From Actinomycetota bacterium (GTDB taxonomy: Bacteria > Actinomycetota > Actinomycetes > Nanopelagicales > Nanopelagicaceae), in NCBI GenBank assembly GCA_015660815.1, contig JACSDF010000003.1:62001-126000 (forward strand): 64,000 nucleotides of DNA. The letters run 5' to 3'. Of the stretch, positions 48,683 through 62,176 are shown one piece after another. Under the pieces are notes generated by a model. The model searched no databases. It was not told the DNA's origin and saw nothing but the letters and a program-made list of their open reading frames with translations. The position numbers were made by a program, and so were the translations under genes. How positions within the stretch are numbered: position 1 is the first letter of the stretch; each line of letters begins with the position of its first letter.

Positions 48683-49720
48683 TTATGCGCTCACCTCTCT
48701 CTTGACAATTGCCTTCTCACGTTTTTTACGTGGCAAGAGACCATCAGGCCTAAAGTTCATTACAACCACTAGTACTAAACCGAAAACTAATAAACGTGCA
48801 TCGGAGATGAAACGGATTCGATCCGGTAAATATCCGAGAATCGTCGCACCAACAACTACTCCCCAAATGTTTCCAATTCCACCAAAAACAACGCAGGAGA
48901 GAATCAAAATCGATACGTTAAGCGTAAACATTTCAGGTGCGATAAATAGATTTTTAGATGCGTACAGAACACCAGCAGCACCACCAATAGCAGCACCTAA
49001 TGTGAATGACCAAATCTTATATTTAAGAGTCGGCACGCCCATAAGTTCAGCTGCATCTTCATCCTGTCTAATTGCCTCCCAAGCACGACCCGGGCGGCGA
49101 ATACTAAGTCGTCGAATCATCCAAATCGTTAGCAAAATCATTACTACAACGACCCAAAAGAAAACCTTTTGATCATCTAATTTAAACTTAAGAGGTCCGA
49201 TATCCGGTGGCATTGGAATATTTGCAATTCCATTTGGGCCTTTAGTCCACGTTGAATTTAGGGCTATAAGGCGAACAATTTCACCAAAGCCCAAAGTTAC
49301 AATCGCTAAATAATCACCACGAAGTCGAAGCGTCGGCAGTCCAAGTAGGACGCCTGCCAACATCGCAAAGGCAATTCCAAAAGGCATAATCTCCCAGGTA
49401 TTTAGACTGGTAAGAGTGCCCATAAGCGCCATTGTGTAAGCGCCGATTGCAAAGAATGCTACATATCCCAAATCCAGCATTCCAGATTTTCCTACGACGA
49501 TGTTGAGGCCAAGTGCCATTAAAACAAAGATTCCAACTGGATACACCAGAACTGCGTCATAGGATGCGATTGGAGTTGCTAAAAAGCTAGCGCCTGCAAA
49601 AGGCAAAAGGCCAACTAAAAATATGGAGATGAGCGCAATGCCTACGCGTTGAAGACGATTGGATCGTTCCCAAATGCCGGCACCAAAGTCGCGAAGATTA
49701 AAGAAACTTCGTATTTTCAT
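48683..49720 (-). CDS. livM: Branched-chain amino-acid-type ABC transporter permease LivM
   Basis: Membrane subunit. The start MKIRSFFNLRDFG at 49720 lies four bases after livH; a frame running 15 codons into livH is dismissed. The 345 residues have about eight to ten helices with GKSGMLDLGYVAFFAIGAYT and TLGFGEIVRLIALN, and the coupling region RRPGRAWEAIRQDEDAAELMG that contacts the ATPases. Confidence 0.92.
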   Translation of the reverse strand: MKIRSFFNLRDFGAGIWERSNRLQRVGIALISIFLVGLLPFAGASFLATPIASYDAVLVYPVGIFVLMALGLNIVVGKSGMLDLGYVAFFAIGAYTMALMGTLTSLNTWEIMPFGIAFAMLAGVLLGLPTLRLRGDYLAIVTLGFGEIVRLIALNSTWTKGPNGIANIPMPPDIGPLKFKLDDQKVFFWVVVVMILLTIWMIRRLSIRRPGRAWEAIRQDEDAAELMGVPTLKYKIWSFTLGAAIGGAAGVLYASKNLFIAPEMFTLNVSILILSCVVFGGIGNIWGVVVGATILGYLPDRIRFISDARLLVFGLVLVVVMNFRPDGLLPRKKREKAIVKREVSA

Positions 49721-49724
49721 ATTC

Positions 49725-50675
49725 TTAAGCCCTCGTCTGCTGGACGGCTTCACCAAATAGACCATTTGGCTTAAAGAGAAGCACTAGTACAAGTACCACG
49801 AAGACTGTCACCGCCTTCCATTGGGTGCCGAGCACGGCAGAGGCATAGACTTCAAGAAGACCTAGGCTTATTCCTCCATAAAAAGCGCCTCTAATATTTC
49901 CGATTCCACCAAGAACGGCTGCCGTAAATGCGGCCAATCCCATCGTAAATCCGATGTTGAACTTTGTGTATTCAAAGACAGTTGTATAGAAGAAAGCTGC
50001 GGCTCCTGTAGCAAGGCCCCCAACTAAGAAAGTCGTCGTGATAACACGGTTTAAATTAACGCCCATTAACTTCGCAGCATCTTCATTTTGCGAAACGGCG
50101 CGAATTGCTTTGCCCATGCGAGATAATTTAATAAACCGTTCAAGAATGAAAAAGATTACTGCCGCCGCAATAATTGTAATAATTGTGTCGAGACGCAAAT
50201 TTGCGCCCCATACTTCAGCCAAAATAATCTTTTCTAAAACTCGAGGCGAACCTACTGGGCGAGAATCGGTTAGTAAACGCATTACTTCTTGGAGAACTAT
50301 TGAGATTCCAATGGCTGAGATCAAAGTAGCCAGACGGTTAGTACCCTTCATACGCAAGCGACGATAAGCAACAAACTCTACAAAAACTGCGGTCAACCCG
50401 GCAATGAACATCGACATGAGTAAAGCTGTTATCAGAACGAGGGCTAGCTTCCACCCTGTTGCAGGCTCCGAAGTCTGGGTGTAATTATAAAGATCACGAT
50501 TTGTAATGACCGTTCCAAAAGTTCCCCACATAAAGATTTCTGAGTTAGCGAAGTTAATCATTCGCAGAACTCCGTAGACCATGGTGTAGCCGAGCGAGAT
50601 TAGAACATAGATAAAACCGAGTGCGAGTCCAGCGATCGTTAATGACCAGAACTGGTCGATCAAAACTACAAACAT
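49725..50675 (-). CDS. livH: Branched-chain amino-acid-type ABC transporter permease LivH
   Basis: Membrane subunit of 316 residues. Visible are SLGYTMVYGVLRMINFANSE near the N-terminus and the coupling loop GKAIRAVSQNEDAAKLMGVN, both typical of LivH, with about eight hydrophobic segments. A good AAGGAG site precedes ATG. It is separated from livK by 139 bases that hold a long hairpin. Confidence 0.93.
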   Translation of the reverse strand: MFVVLIDQFWSLTIAGLALGFIYVLISLGYTMVYGVLRMINFANSEIFMWGTFGTVITNRDLYNYTQTSEPATGWKLALVLITALLMSMFIAGLTAVFVEFVAYRRLRMKGTNRLATLISAIGISIVLQEVMRLLTDSRPVGSPRVLEKIILAEVWGANLRLDTIITIIAAAVIFFILERFIKLSRMGKAIRAVSQNEDAAKLMGVNLNRVITTTFLVGGLATGAAAFFYTTVFEYTKFNIGFTMGLAAFTAAVLGGIGNIRGAFYGGISLGLLEVYASAVLGTQWKAVTVFVVLVLVLLFKPNGLFGEAVQQTRA

Positions 50676-50726
50676 TGCACTCCTTAAGGCTGTTGATCGA
50701 ATAGGTAAATGTAATGCATCTACATG

Positions 50727-50783
50727 TAAGTAGTGGGTGTTTCGGGGCTCTCTAGAGAGATTTCCGAAACACCCACTTACTTA
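50727..50783. repeat. Long stable hairpin between livK and livH
   Basis: Arms of 19-20 bases, TAAGTAGTGGGTGTTTCGG and CCGAAACACCCACTTACTTA, pair with one bulged base; the loop contains a further 12-base palindrome CTCTCTAGAGAG (50748-50759). No T run follows on the minus strand. The place, directly after a highly used binding-protein gene and before its permease genes, fits an mRNA-stabilising or processing hairpin that raises livK over livH-M-G-F. Function is inferred. Confidence 0.7.
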
Positions 50784-50814
50784 TAAGCGTTGTAGTTGAG
50801 TAGCTAAGAAATAA

Positions 50815-51966
50815 CTACTTAACGATGCCTGTATTGACTAGAACGCCGCCCTTTGAAGTGAAGCCAGCAAAGAGTCCGTATGAAATGTCGCCATTTGCAT
50901 CGAACTTAATAGTGTTTCCACTGACGCTCTTACCCTTGTATGCCTTAACCCACTTAAGCATCTTGGCACGGGTGGTGTTACCTTTCTTGATACCCTCAAG
51001 CAAGATATTTGCAGCATCATAAGATTCAACTGAGTAAACTCCTGAAGAGACACCCATCTGCTTCTTGAAATCTGCTTCTAGCTTTGGGCTGATACCAGCT
51101 AATCCACCTACACCAGTAATGCGTGAACCTTCAGCTGCAGTACCTGCAAGCTTTGGGAACTCCTGGTTGAAGACTCCGTCGCCACCAGCAAATATTGCTT
51201 TTGAACCTGAGTCACGGAGCTGCTTAATGAAAATTGCAGCTGCAGAGTAGTAACCGGTATAGATAACTACAGTTGCTCCAGAAGTTGCAATCTTTGCAAT
51301 TGTTGGGCTGTAATCAGTTGCTGTATTTGGAACTGAATCTCCACCAACAAGTGACGCTCCAGCAACCTTGGTCAAACCAGCTTCAACGTAGCCACGTAGT
51401 GGTACGGCATATGCTGATTGATCATCGAAAACAAATACCTTTGCATTTGAAACACCCTTAGTTGCATATTTAGCCAACGCTGGACCTTGTAGATCATCTT
51501 TACCAACAACACGGTGGAACACTGGTCCGCCGAAGTCAGGAGATGTTGGATCTGTAAGTGATACACGTGTTGCAGATGGTGAGATAAGAACTAATCCACC
51601 AGCCTTGTAATATGGAAGTGATGCGATTGTTGCACCTGAGTAAGCAGGTCCAACTACGCCAAGTACATTCTTGTTAGAACCAATTCCTGGAGCAACTGTT
51701 GATGCAACAGCTGGATCTCCCTGGTCATCTACTGAAACTACCTTGACGTTGAACTTACCTTTGTTCTTTGCATTGAAAAGCTTGACTGCATACTTGACTG
51801 CATTCTGCTCATCGATACCAGTTGATGCTTCTCCACCTGAAAGAGGACCTTGGTATGCGATGTAGAGAACCTTTGCAGCTGCCTGTGCTGTCGATGCTGA
51901 CGCAACTCCGAAAACGAGAGCGGCGGCAGATACAACGGCAAGTGAACGCTGAATCTTTCTGTTCAT
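50815..51966 (-). CDS. livK: Branched-chain amino-acid-type substrate-binding protein LivK
   Basis: Exported receptor of the importer. The 383 residues begin with a Sec signal (MNRKIQRS, hydrophobic core, cleavage near ASTAQA-AA at about 28-30) without a lipobox cysteine. The type I periplasmic-binding fold follows, with YIAYQGPLSGGEASTG, NVLGVVGPAYSGATI and LVLISPSATR. The ligand may be leucine, isoleucine or valine, but the family also takes urea, amides or aromatic acids. AGGAAAGG lies seven bases before ATG. Confidence 0.9.
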   Translation of the reverse strand: MNRKIQRSLAVVSAAALVFGVASASTAQAAAKVLYIAYQGPLSGGEASTGIDEQNAVKYAVKLFNAKNKGKFNVKVVSVDDQGDPAVASTVAPGIGSNKNVLGVVGPAYSGATIASLPYYKAGGLVLISPSATRVSLTDPTSPDFGGPVFHRVVGKDDLQGPALAKYATKGVSNAKVFVFDDQSAYAVPLRGYVEAGLTKVAGASLVGGDSVPNTATDYSPTIAKIATSGATVVIYTGYYSAAAIFIKQLRDSGSKAIFAGGDGVFNQEFPKLAGTAAEGSRITGVGGLAGISPKLEADFKKQMGVSSGVYSVESYDAANILLEGIKKGNTTRAKMLKWVKAYKGKSVSGNTIKFDANGDISYGLFAGFTSKGGVLVNTGIVK

Positions 51967-52109: not shown

Positions 52110-52685
52110 TTATTGAAATGGGACCGCATCTGGGTTGATGACCGCCTCGGCCACTGCCTTCATACTCATTCGCCGGTCCATCGCCGCCCGCTGTATCCAT
52201 GAAAAGGCCTCAGGCTCGGGTAAATTCAGCGCAGTCATTAAAATCCCTTTGGCCCGATCGATTAATTTGCGGGTCTCAAGACGATCATGTAAATCTGCAA
52301 CTTCGGCAGCTAAAACGCTCATTTGCAGATGCCTACTTATTGCAATCTCAATTGCTGGAATTAAGTCACCAATTGTGAATGGTTTTACCACGTAGGCCAT
52401 AACCCCGGCATCTCGCGCACGATCAATGAGCTCCTTTTGCGAGAAGGCCGTAAGCATTAAAACCGGAGCTACATCAATAATCTTTTCAGCCGCGGAGATG
52501 CCATCTAAAACCGGCATTTTGACATCTAAAATAGCTAGATCGGGCTTGTGCAGAAGCGCTAAATCAATCGCCTCTTGCCCATTGGTTGCCTGCGCCACTA
52601 CTTCATAGCCGGCGCCTTGGAGCATTTCAACTAAATCCATGCGGATGAGCGCCTCATCTTCGGCAACCAGAATACGAACGCTCAT
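52110..52685 (-). CDS. pdtaR: ANTAR-domain response regulator (PdtaR-like)
   Basis: Response regulator that, in mycobacteria, binds RNA hairpins through its ANTAR domain to prevent transcription termination. The 191 residues have a receiver domain with acidic EDEAL, the phosphoacceptor Asp54 (AILDVKMPV) and Lys101 (YVVKPF), then a C-terminal ANTAR three-helix region with LIDRAKGILMTALN and EAFSWIQRAAMDRRMS. No kinase gene is beside it; the partner in relatives is unlinked. It lies downstream of the tRNA gene and pyk, the conserved actinobacterial order. Confidence 0.93.
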   Translation of the reverse strand: MSVRILVAEDEALIRMDLVEMLQGAGYEVVAQATNGQEAIDLALLHKPDLAILDVKMPVLDGISAAEKIIDVAPVLMLTAFSQKELIDRARDAGVMAYVVKPFTIGDLIPAIEIAISRHLQMSVLAAEVADLHDRLETRKLIDRAKGILMTALNLPEPEAFSWIQRAAMDRRMSMKAVAEAVINPDAVPFQ

Positions 52686-52723
52686 GTCCCATTCACCCCT
52701 TCAGGATGCAAATGCAGTGTGCG

Positions 52724-52796
52724 TGCCTCGAGTCGGATTCGAACCGACACTATGCAGTGTTTGAGACTGCCCTCTCTACCGTTGGAGTACCGAGGC
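52724..52796 (-). tRNA. Class I-shaped tRNA with anticodon CAA (Leu codon UUG)
   Basis: A full 73-base cloverleaf: acceptor GCCTCGG/TCGAGGC with one G-U pair, short D stem CTC/GAG with the GG loop, anticodon stem GCAGT/ACTGC with loop CTCAAAC giving anticodon CAA, a five-base variable region ATAGT, T stem GTCGG/CCGAC with loop TTCGAAT, and discriminator A. CCA is not encoded. The anticodon reads UUG (Leu), but the long variable arm of leucine tRNAs is absent. All tertiary bases checked (U8, A14, A15-U48, GG, C56) are present. A TAAGAT box lies 11 bases upstream, just after pyk. Confidence 0.88.
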
Positions 52797-52828: not shown

Positions 52829-54268
52829 TTATCGGTACGCAGGAGCTGCGCCGCCAACGGCATCGCCCACGCGGTGCACTCGCATCGCATTCGTCGAGCC
52901 TGGAATTCCTGGAGGAGCGCCAGCAACGATCATGACGTTGTCGCCGATCGTCGCCCTTCCGGATTCGATGAGCACGGTATCAACTAACTTCACCATCTCG
53001 TCGGTCGCCCCGACTACAGGGGTAAGCATTGATTCAACTCCCCACGATAGGGCCAACCGATTATATGTTCCGACCTCTGGAGTCATGGCAAGAATTGGAA
53101 TTGGTGAGCGAAGACGTGACATTCGACGAGCTGAATCACCACTTTGGGTAAATGCAACTAAATACTTAGCATCAACGATTGCGCCGACTTCGGTGGCAGC
53201 CTTTGTGATTGCGCCACCCTTTGTTCGAGGCGCGGTTTTGATAGGGCGTATTCGATCCAAGCCACCCTCTTCAGTTTTTTGAATAATACGCGCCATAGTT
53301 TGAACGGCCTCAATCGGAAACTCGCCAATGCTAGTTTCACCAGAGAGCATCAATGCGTCAGCGCCATCTAGAACCGCATTTGCGCAGTCAGTAGCTTCGG
53401 CACGTGTCGGACGCGAATTTGTAATCATGGATTCCAGCATTTGAGTTGCAACGATTACAGGCTTTGCCATATCACGAGCGAGTTCGACACATAGTTTTTG
53501 CACAAGCGGCACATCTTCGATTGGAAGCTCAACACCTAAATCTCCACGAGCAACCATAATTCCATCAAAGGCATCGACAATGGCAGCGATGTTTGCAACG
53601 GCTTGTGGTTTTTCAATTTTGGCAATGACGGGAAGGCGAATTCCTACCTCATCCATAATCTTATGAACATCATTGATATCGGTAGCGTTACGGACAAATG
53701 AAAGTGCAATGAAATCGGCACCGGCGCGAAGACCCCACCGTAAATCTTCAATATCTTTCTCAGACAATGCAGGAACAGATACGGCTACTCCGGGGAGATT
53801 GATTCCTTTATTATTACTGACTGTGCCCGGATAAATTACCTTTGTTATGACATCAGAGCCTTTAACTTCAATAACTTCGACGGTCACCTTTCCATCATCG
53901 ATTAAAATGTGGTCTCCGATTTTGCAATCTCCTGGCAGGCCTTTATACGTGGTTCCAACGCGCTCTTGTGTGCCCTCAATCTCATCGGTCGTGATTGTAA
54001 AGATCTCTCCACGAGCTAAATCATGTGGGCCAGCAGAAAATCGTGCGAGTCGAATCTTTGGACCTTGAAGATCCACAAGGATTGCAACTGGCCGTCCCGC
54101 TGCCTTAGCTGCAGCTCTGACTAGATCGAGACGCACTTGATGCTCTTCATAAGAACCATGTGAAAGATTTAATCTAGCCATATTCATGCCGGCATCAATG
54201 AGAGCTTTGACTTGCTCTGGGGATTCAACCGCTGGCCCTAACGTGCACACAATCTTTGCTCTACGCAT
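52829..54268 (-). CDS. pyk: Pyruvate kinase
   Basis: Last step of glycolysis, making ATP and pyruvate. The 479 residues show ARLNLSHGSYEEH, the catalytic lysine in PVIAKIEKPQAV, MVARGDLGVELP, TQMLESMITNSRPTRAEATD and LSGETSIGEFP, with the allosteric C-domain following. Full length and intact. It lies between gltD and the tRNA gene, close to pdtaR as in other actinobacteria. Confidence 0.97.
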   Translation of the reverse strand: MRRAKIVCTLGPAVESPEQVKALIDAGMNMARLNLSHGSYEEHQVRLDLVRAAAKAAGRPVAILVDLQGPKIRLARFSAGPHDLARGEIFTITTDEIEGTQERVGTTYKGLPGDCKIGDHILIDDGKVTVEVIEVKGSDVITKVIYPGTVSNNKGINLPGVAVSVPALSEKDIEDLRWGLRAGADFIALSFVRNATDINDVHKIMDEVGIRLPVIAKIEKPQAVANIAAIVDAFDGIMVARGDLGVELPIEDVPLVQKLCVELARDMAKPVIVATQMLESMITNSRPTRAEATDCANAVLDGADALMLSGETSIGEFPIEAVQTMARIIQKTEEGGLDRIRPIKTAPRTKGGAITKAATEVGAIVDAKYLVAFTQSGDSARRMSRLRSPIPILAMTPEVGTYNRLALSWGVESMLTPVVGATDEMVKLVDTVLIESGRATIGDNVMIVAGAPPGIPGSTNAMRVHRVGDAVGGAAPAYR

Positions 54269-61903: not shown

Positions 61904-62176
61904 TTAGCCTGCCTCTACGGCAAGGCGGAATTCGACGGGATCAAATGCATTTGATTTTCGAACCCACAACTTGTCATTAATAAAGACCGTCGGTGTTCCG
62001 GTGATGTTGTAACCAGCCATGGAATCTGCATGAGCCTTTACTAAATCCGCCTTTCCACCATTATTTACACAATCAATAAAGCTCTTGCTCTTTAATCCAG
62101 CATAATCACCGATTTTAATCAAATTCTCGCTAGTGAAAAAACCTGAGTTTTCTTGCACTGGTTGAACGATGTACAA
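61904..62176 (-). pseudogene. DsbA-like thioredoxin-fold protein, C-terminal fragment
   Basis: Second half of a split gene. The 90 residues hold the end of the thioredoxin fold, with the cis-proline motif GTPTVFIND, but no active-site cysteines. The frame is -1 relative to the upstream half; the open frame continues back through DFNKAL to the T run at 62193-62197, where an extra base would join the halves. Its own TTG start is only formal. It ends five bases before lgt. Confidence 0.7.

Follow-up and report, generated by a model that had tools for sequence, protein, structure and literature searches.

The minus strand of the 64,000-nucleotide stretch analysed here (the window; positions 62,001 to 126,000 of contig JACSDF010000003.1) encodes, between pyk and pdtaR, a tRNA with the anticodon CAA and a short variable region. 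The gene very probably specifies a functional leucine tRNA in everyday use, which would read UUG with a class I body. At its locus the two structural forms, class I and class II, act as exchangeable alleles, and in Streptomyces they repeatedly replace each other.

A class I tRNA-Leu(CAA) gene

ARAGORN predicted tRNA-Leu(CAA) on the minus strand at 52723–52796, and the Rfam model RF00005 matched positions 52724–52796 with 54.2 bits (gathering score 29). The cloverleaf is the minimum-energy fold of the sequence; it is intact and presents CAA in a 7-nt anticodon loop. The variable region has 5 nt, which is within the range of class I tRNAs (4–5 nt) and below that of class II (at least 10 nt). The leucine identity elements of E. 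coli (A73, U8-A14, A15-U48 and G18-G19) are all present. The features of the gene are the following:

52724–52796, minus strand: class I (short variable region) tRNA-Leu, anticodon CAA, 73 nt, CCA not encoded (ARAGORN, RF00005, cloverleaf fold, conservation within the genus)
52759–52765, minus strand: anticodon loop CTCAAAC, with the anticodon CAA at 52761–52763
52749–52753, minus strand: variable region ATAGT, tRNA positions 44–48, with U48 at 52749
52782, minus strand: A15, forming the Levitt pair A15-U48, a leucine identity element in E. coli (PMC9976931)
52724, minus strand: discriminator A73, constant among the compared leucine tRNAs

The same sequence recurs at 95–100% identity in at least 30 further congeneric genomes, including two single-contig assemblies, and for this reason an assembly error can be excluded as the origin of the short variable region. 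An earlier note on this DNA had named absence from relatives, or a read-level correction restoring a long arm, as grounds for giving up its reading; the congeneric copies answer both points. The note's view that the tRNA is not decayed was borne out, pseudogene decay being ruled out by this conservation together with the covariation described below.

UUA and UUG codons and the leucine tRNA set

Judged by the pdtaR protein, Candidatus Planktophila versatilis and P. lacus are among the nearest named relatives of the window, which is accordingly taken to belong to Candidatus Planktophila, a genus of freshwater actinobacteria. The window genome (a 1.59 Mb assembly, 98% complete) was compared with a complete, single-contig Candidatus Planktophila genome (G014) and with a Streptomyces genome (G054). 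G014 yielded four leucine tRNAs, two of class II (GAG, UAG) and two of class I (UAA, CAA). The window genome has the same four, its class I UAA tRNA being located as follows:

Contig C19 of the window genome, 3901–3973: another leucine tRNA of class I, with the anticodon UAA, lying downstream from a ppx-like gene

The tRNA listings of the window genome and G014 contained no class II UAA or CAA tRNA, so UUA and UUG are apparently read by class I tRNAs alone. In G054 the class I CAA tRNA was the sole CAA tRNA found, and the others were class II: UAG, GAG (two), CAG and a bldA-like UAA. A normal class II CAA copy, whose existence the earlier note had left open, was not found in G014 or in G054, yet the class II form occupies the same locus in other species. 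The class I CAA tRNA is therefore the only dedicated UUG reader in these two genomes. The note's "specialised leucine tRNA" thus holds as to leucine and finds no support as to specialised. One circumstance weighs against so complete a replacement: the RF00005 search might miss a highly divergent class II gene. Unusual tRNA-like genes with ambiguous or odd anticodon calls were also seen, two in the window genome (L034, L036) and two, low-scoring, in G014 (L136, L137).

The meaning of the codons was examined in three genes of the window, gltB, gltD and pyk, aligned to their E. coli homologues. TTG stood opposite an E. coli leucine 14 times (next commonest residue 2) and TTA 29 times (next residue 6); the comparison codon CTT did so 23 times (next residue 8). 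TTG and TTA align with leucine no less often than CTN codons in these genes, and on these alignments the UUR codons (UUA, UUG) are read as leucine in the window genome. One leucyl-tRNA synthetase (LeuRS) above the cut-off was found in each of the window genome, G014 and G054.

Covariation and identity elements

Covariation was assessed in 70 distinct class I CAA, 18 distinct class I UAA and 46 distinct class II CAA sequences. The acceptor stem, the D stem (three pairs) and the T stem are paired in all 70 class I CAA sequences, with compensatory changes. U8-A14 and a C13-A22 mismatch are constant in the same 70, and one allele group has A-C as pair 31-39. Positions 15 and 48 covary throughout: the pair is A-U in 52 sequences and G-C in 18, and mixed pairs do not occur. 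The anticodon loop is CTCAAAC in 39 sequences, TTCAAAA in 25 and CTCAAAA in 6. A73 is constant in all three groups (70/70, 18/18 and 46/46).

In E. coli, leucylation was found to require A73 and A15-U48 as essential elements and to depend also on G18-G19 and A20a, whereas it does not need the long arm (review PMC9976931). We infer that the window tRNA is leucylated: this is the expected reading because the core elements of the E. coli type are kept. LeuRS would charge class I tRNA-Leu(CAA) through its tertiary core, comprising A73, U8-A14, the 15-48 pair, G18-G19 and the 3-bp D stem. Judged from these sequences, the long variable arm is most likely dispensable for the LeuRS of these bacteria, and an arm that the enzyme does not need would be free to be lost or regained.

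Two observations count against leaning heavily on these elements. The 18 of 70 class I CAA tRNAs that carry G15-C48 imply that A15-U48 is not a strict requirement in those tRNAs, and some Arg and Ala tRNAs of the window genome likewise combine A15-U48 and A73, so the features are compatible with leucine and not unique to it.

The earlier note had also entertained charging with another amino acid. The class I body is indeed unusual for leucine, and a codon reassignment was considered; we rejected it as extremely improbable, since UUG and UUA align with leucine in the E. coli homologues, A73 and the core agree with leucine tRNAs, and class II tRNA-Leu(CAA) orthologues occupy the same locus. Its other suggestion, a regulatory or non-translational tRNA-like RNA, drew some appeal from the conserved place beside a response regulator. 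It too is very unlikely: the complete genomes yielded no CAA tRNA besides the window type, and some of its orthologues at this position are ordinary leucine tRNAs of class II.

Conservation of the locus in actinobacteria

The tRNA gene is flanked by two genes on the same strand:

52110–52685, minus strand: pdtaR-like response regulator, downstream neighbour (receiver-domain matches; ANTAR domain assigned from synteny and similarity)
52829–54268, minus strand: pyk, pyruvate kinase, upstream neighbour (NCBIfam NF004886/TIGR01064)

A scan of named actinomycete genomes for pdtaR yielded 80 loci. At every one of them tRNA-Leu(CAA) adjoins pdtaR, and pyk adjoins the tRNA in most, which agrees with the earlier proposal that the position between pyk and pdtaR is conserved in actinobacteria. 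The tRNA is class I at 39 loci (20 in Nanopelagicales or similar, the rest in Amycolatopsis, Bailinhaonella and many Streptomyces) and class II at 41 (Arthrobacter and relatives, Terrabacter, Ruania and the remaining Streptomyces). Because all 80 loci carry tRNA-Leu(CAA), the two forms share one orthologous place. The class I form is fixed in the lineage of the window. A class I UUR-type motif, which catches CAA and UAA forms alike, was present in 233 of 297 Actinomycetes genomes, and a reversed-pattern control gave 0 matches. Class I UAA tRNAs were also found beyond the class Actinomycetes, in some other members of its phylum (L150–L154). Branched-chain amino-acid ABC transporter genes adjoin pdtaR at 48683–51966 of the window and lie beside pdtaR in Streptomyces locus L072 as well.

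Class switching in Streptomyces

We assembled 114 Streptomyces loci, 27 from the scan of named genomes and 87 further ones, a few genomes apparently being in both sets (e.g. L257/L302). All 114 carry tRNA-Leu(CAA), class I at 75 and class II at 39. Genomes with class II at the locus (G184, G227) gave no match to the class I motif, and those with class I at the locus (G054, G163, G217) gave one.

A flanking-gene tree was built from the pdtaR and pyk proteins of 84 Streptomyces loci. On this tree the observed classes require 27 changes, and well-supported branches force at least 14 of them; shuffled labels average 24.3 changes; tRNA class is therefore without phylogenetic signal on it. The tree was made by a quick procedure and has many weak branches, which tempers the count.

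The boundaries of the exchanges were located in close pairs of discordant class. DNA that is approximately 85–94% identical ends 41–56 bp 5′ of the tRNA (72–78 bp in L320/L239), and collinearity is absent across the tRNA. When both members have the open reading frame (ORF) described below, it is usually absent across the N-terminal half of that ORF too and is regained at roughly +375 to +600 or further on; when one member only has the ORF, it resumes past the ORF. In the same-class pairs L296/L297 and L300/L305 collinearity continues across the tRNA. As a control, tRNA-Leu(CAG) gave full-length class II matches in most Streptomyces genomes, with 96–100% or 84–87% identity; this control is weak because short forms could escape a class II query.

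An ORF adjacent to the switching tRNA

In most Streptomyces loci an ORF, often of about 275 codons, lies directly 3′ of the tRNA on the same strand. It has a helix-turn-helix-like N-terminus and the motif LLGLYLGDG.

Streptomyces locus L072, 2687–3247: LAGLIDADG-like ORF, N-terminal type tracking the class of the adjacent tRNA (likewise at L211, L215 and L263)

Two N-terminal types, A and B, were defined on the first loci, and the remaining loci were then scored for them. Type B was present at all 29 class II loci scored, and class I loci had type A in 42 cases and type B in 9 (Fisher p 3e-14, a statistic that ignores relatedness). In phylogenetically independent pairs the association of type with class was 9.2 with and 0 against (p ~0.004). 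The first hits of the endonuclease query within pyk ran antisense to that gene and were discarded; the ORF is informative in its N-terminal part alone.

These patterns suggest, tentatively and at slightly below even confidence, that the allele swaps in Streptomyces are driven by homing-like, endonuclease-linked gene conversion. Gene conversion would swap a cassette consisting of the tRNA and the DNA-recognition half of the adjacent LAGLIDADG-like endonuclease gene. We regard it as comparably plausible, again a shade short of an even case, that such a mobile specificity cassette repeatedly converts the chromosomal UUG-specific leucine tRNA between the two classes, to which LeuRS would be indifferent. 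Both the endonuclease activity of the ORF product and the homing mechanism are inferred from sequence features. Several findings weigh against this proposal. The match to Pfam LAGLIDADG_3 reached 20.8 bits in one ORF (cut-off 22.5) and was weaker or absent in others. The link between type and class is imperfect, as the nine class I loci with type B show, and no recognisable endonuclease N-terminus was present at 34 of the 114 loci. Within the window no LAGLIDADG-like endonuclease ORF was found.

The switching could also be plain homologous recombination combined with horizontal transfer, for example of phage-borne class I leucine tRNAs, the endonuclease-like gene being a passenger. Class I tRNA-Leu(CAA) occurs in 60 of the 63 viral contigs that bear the class I UUR pattern, the Streptomyces phage GiJojo has a class I CAA tRNA beside a class II UAG tRNA, and phages are a possible source of the class I alleles. 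The loci without a recognisable endonuclease N-terminus fit this explanation too. It accounts poorly for breakpoints that often lie inside or just past the endonuclease ORF and for an N-terminal type that tracks tRNA class, and we consider it a serious but somewhat doubtful candidate. A further conceivable cause is an arms race in which loss of the arm shields the tRNA from nucleases of defence systems or toxins that recognise or cut the variable arm. We think this unlikely: no such leucine-tRNA nuclease turned up, although no search was aimed at one, and the other leucine tRNAs of G054 retain their arms.

The viral class I tRNA-Leu(CAA) genes (L360–L422) often lie within long tRNA arrays and have CCA encoded. 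In Escherichia phage mistaenkt, a phage of E. coli K-12, a short-armed tRNA-Leu(UAG) directly adjoins an annotated HNH endonuclease gene (L423, 1–377).

Relation to known systems

The window type shares with bacterial class II tRNA-Leu(CAA) the anticodon, the pdtaR locus, A73, U8-A14, the 15-48 pair and the short D stem; it differs in lacking the long variable arm and in the C13-A22 mismatch of all 70 class I sequences. Mitochondrial tRNA-Leu(UUR) is likewise a class I leucine tRNA without the long arm (PMC9976931), but it is served by its own LeuRS, whereas the tRNA described here is encoded on the chromosome of free-living bacteria whose LeuRS gene is of the standard bacterial kind. Short-armed leucine tRNAs are not unprecedented, since phages carry them: those of GiJojo, Kykar and mistaenkt are class I and annotated as tRNA-Leu. 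These are phage genes with the anticodons CAA, UAA and UAG, whereas here the host chromosome has this tRNA as its sole CAA reader. Also actinobacterial is the tRNA-Leu(TAG) of a mycobacterial tRNA cluster (PMC6582537), whose variable loop is short, but it is an extra copy beside a normal isoacceptor; here the gene is the only copy and stands at a conserved locus. The Streptomyces ORF can be likened to the gene for SegB of phage T4 (PMC2988022): that endonuclease is free-standing, is encoded next to tRNA genes and biases how they are inherited. SegB is a phage enzyme of the GIY-YIG family, whereas the ORF is chromosomal and would encode a LAGLIDADG-like putative endonuclease.

No paper found in the open literature, with subscription journals mostly outside that survey, describes actinobacteria in which UUR codons are normally read by a chromosomal tRNA-Leu of class I. 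Within this scope, both the status of the chromosomal tRNA as sole reader in actinobacteria and the switching of class in place are apparently undescribed.

Implications

Textbooks assign bacterial leucine tRNAs to class II, a rule that fails for UUR tRNAs across much of Actinomycetes. The occurrence of the two classes as alleles at one locus in close Streptomyces amounts to a natural experiment on LeuRS recognition and on the need for the long arm. If the link to the endonuclease is true, a selfish element would be rewriting a tRNA gene in bacteria that live freely, and annotation tools that infer structural class from isotype would be affected.
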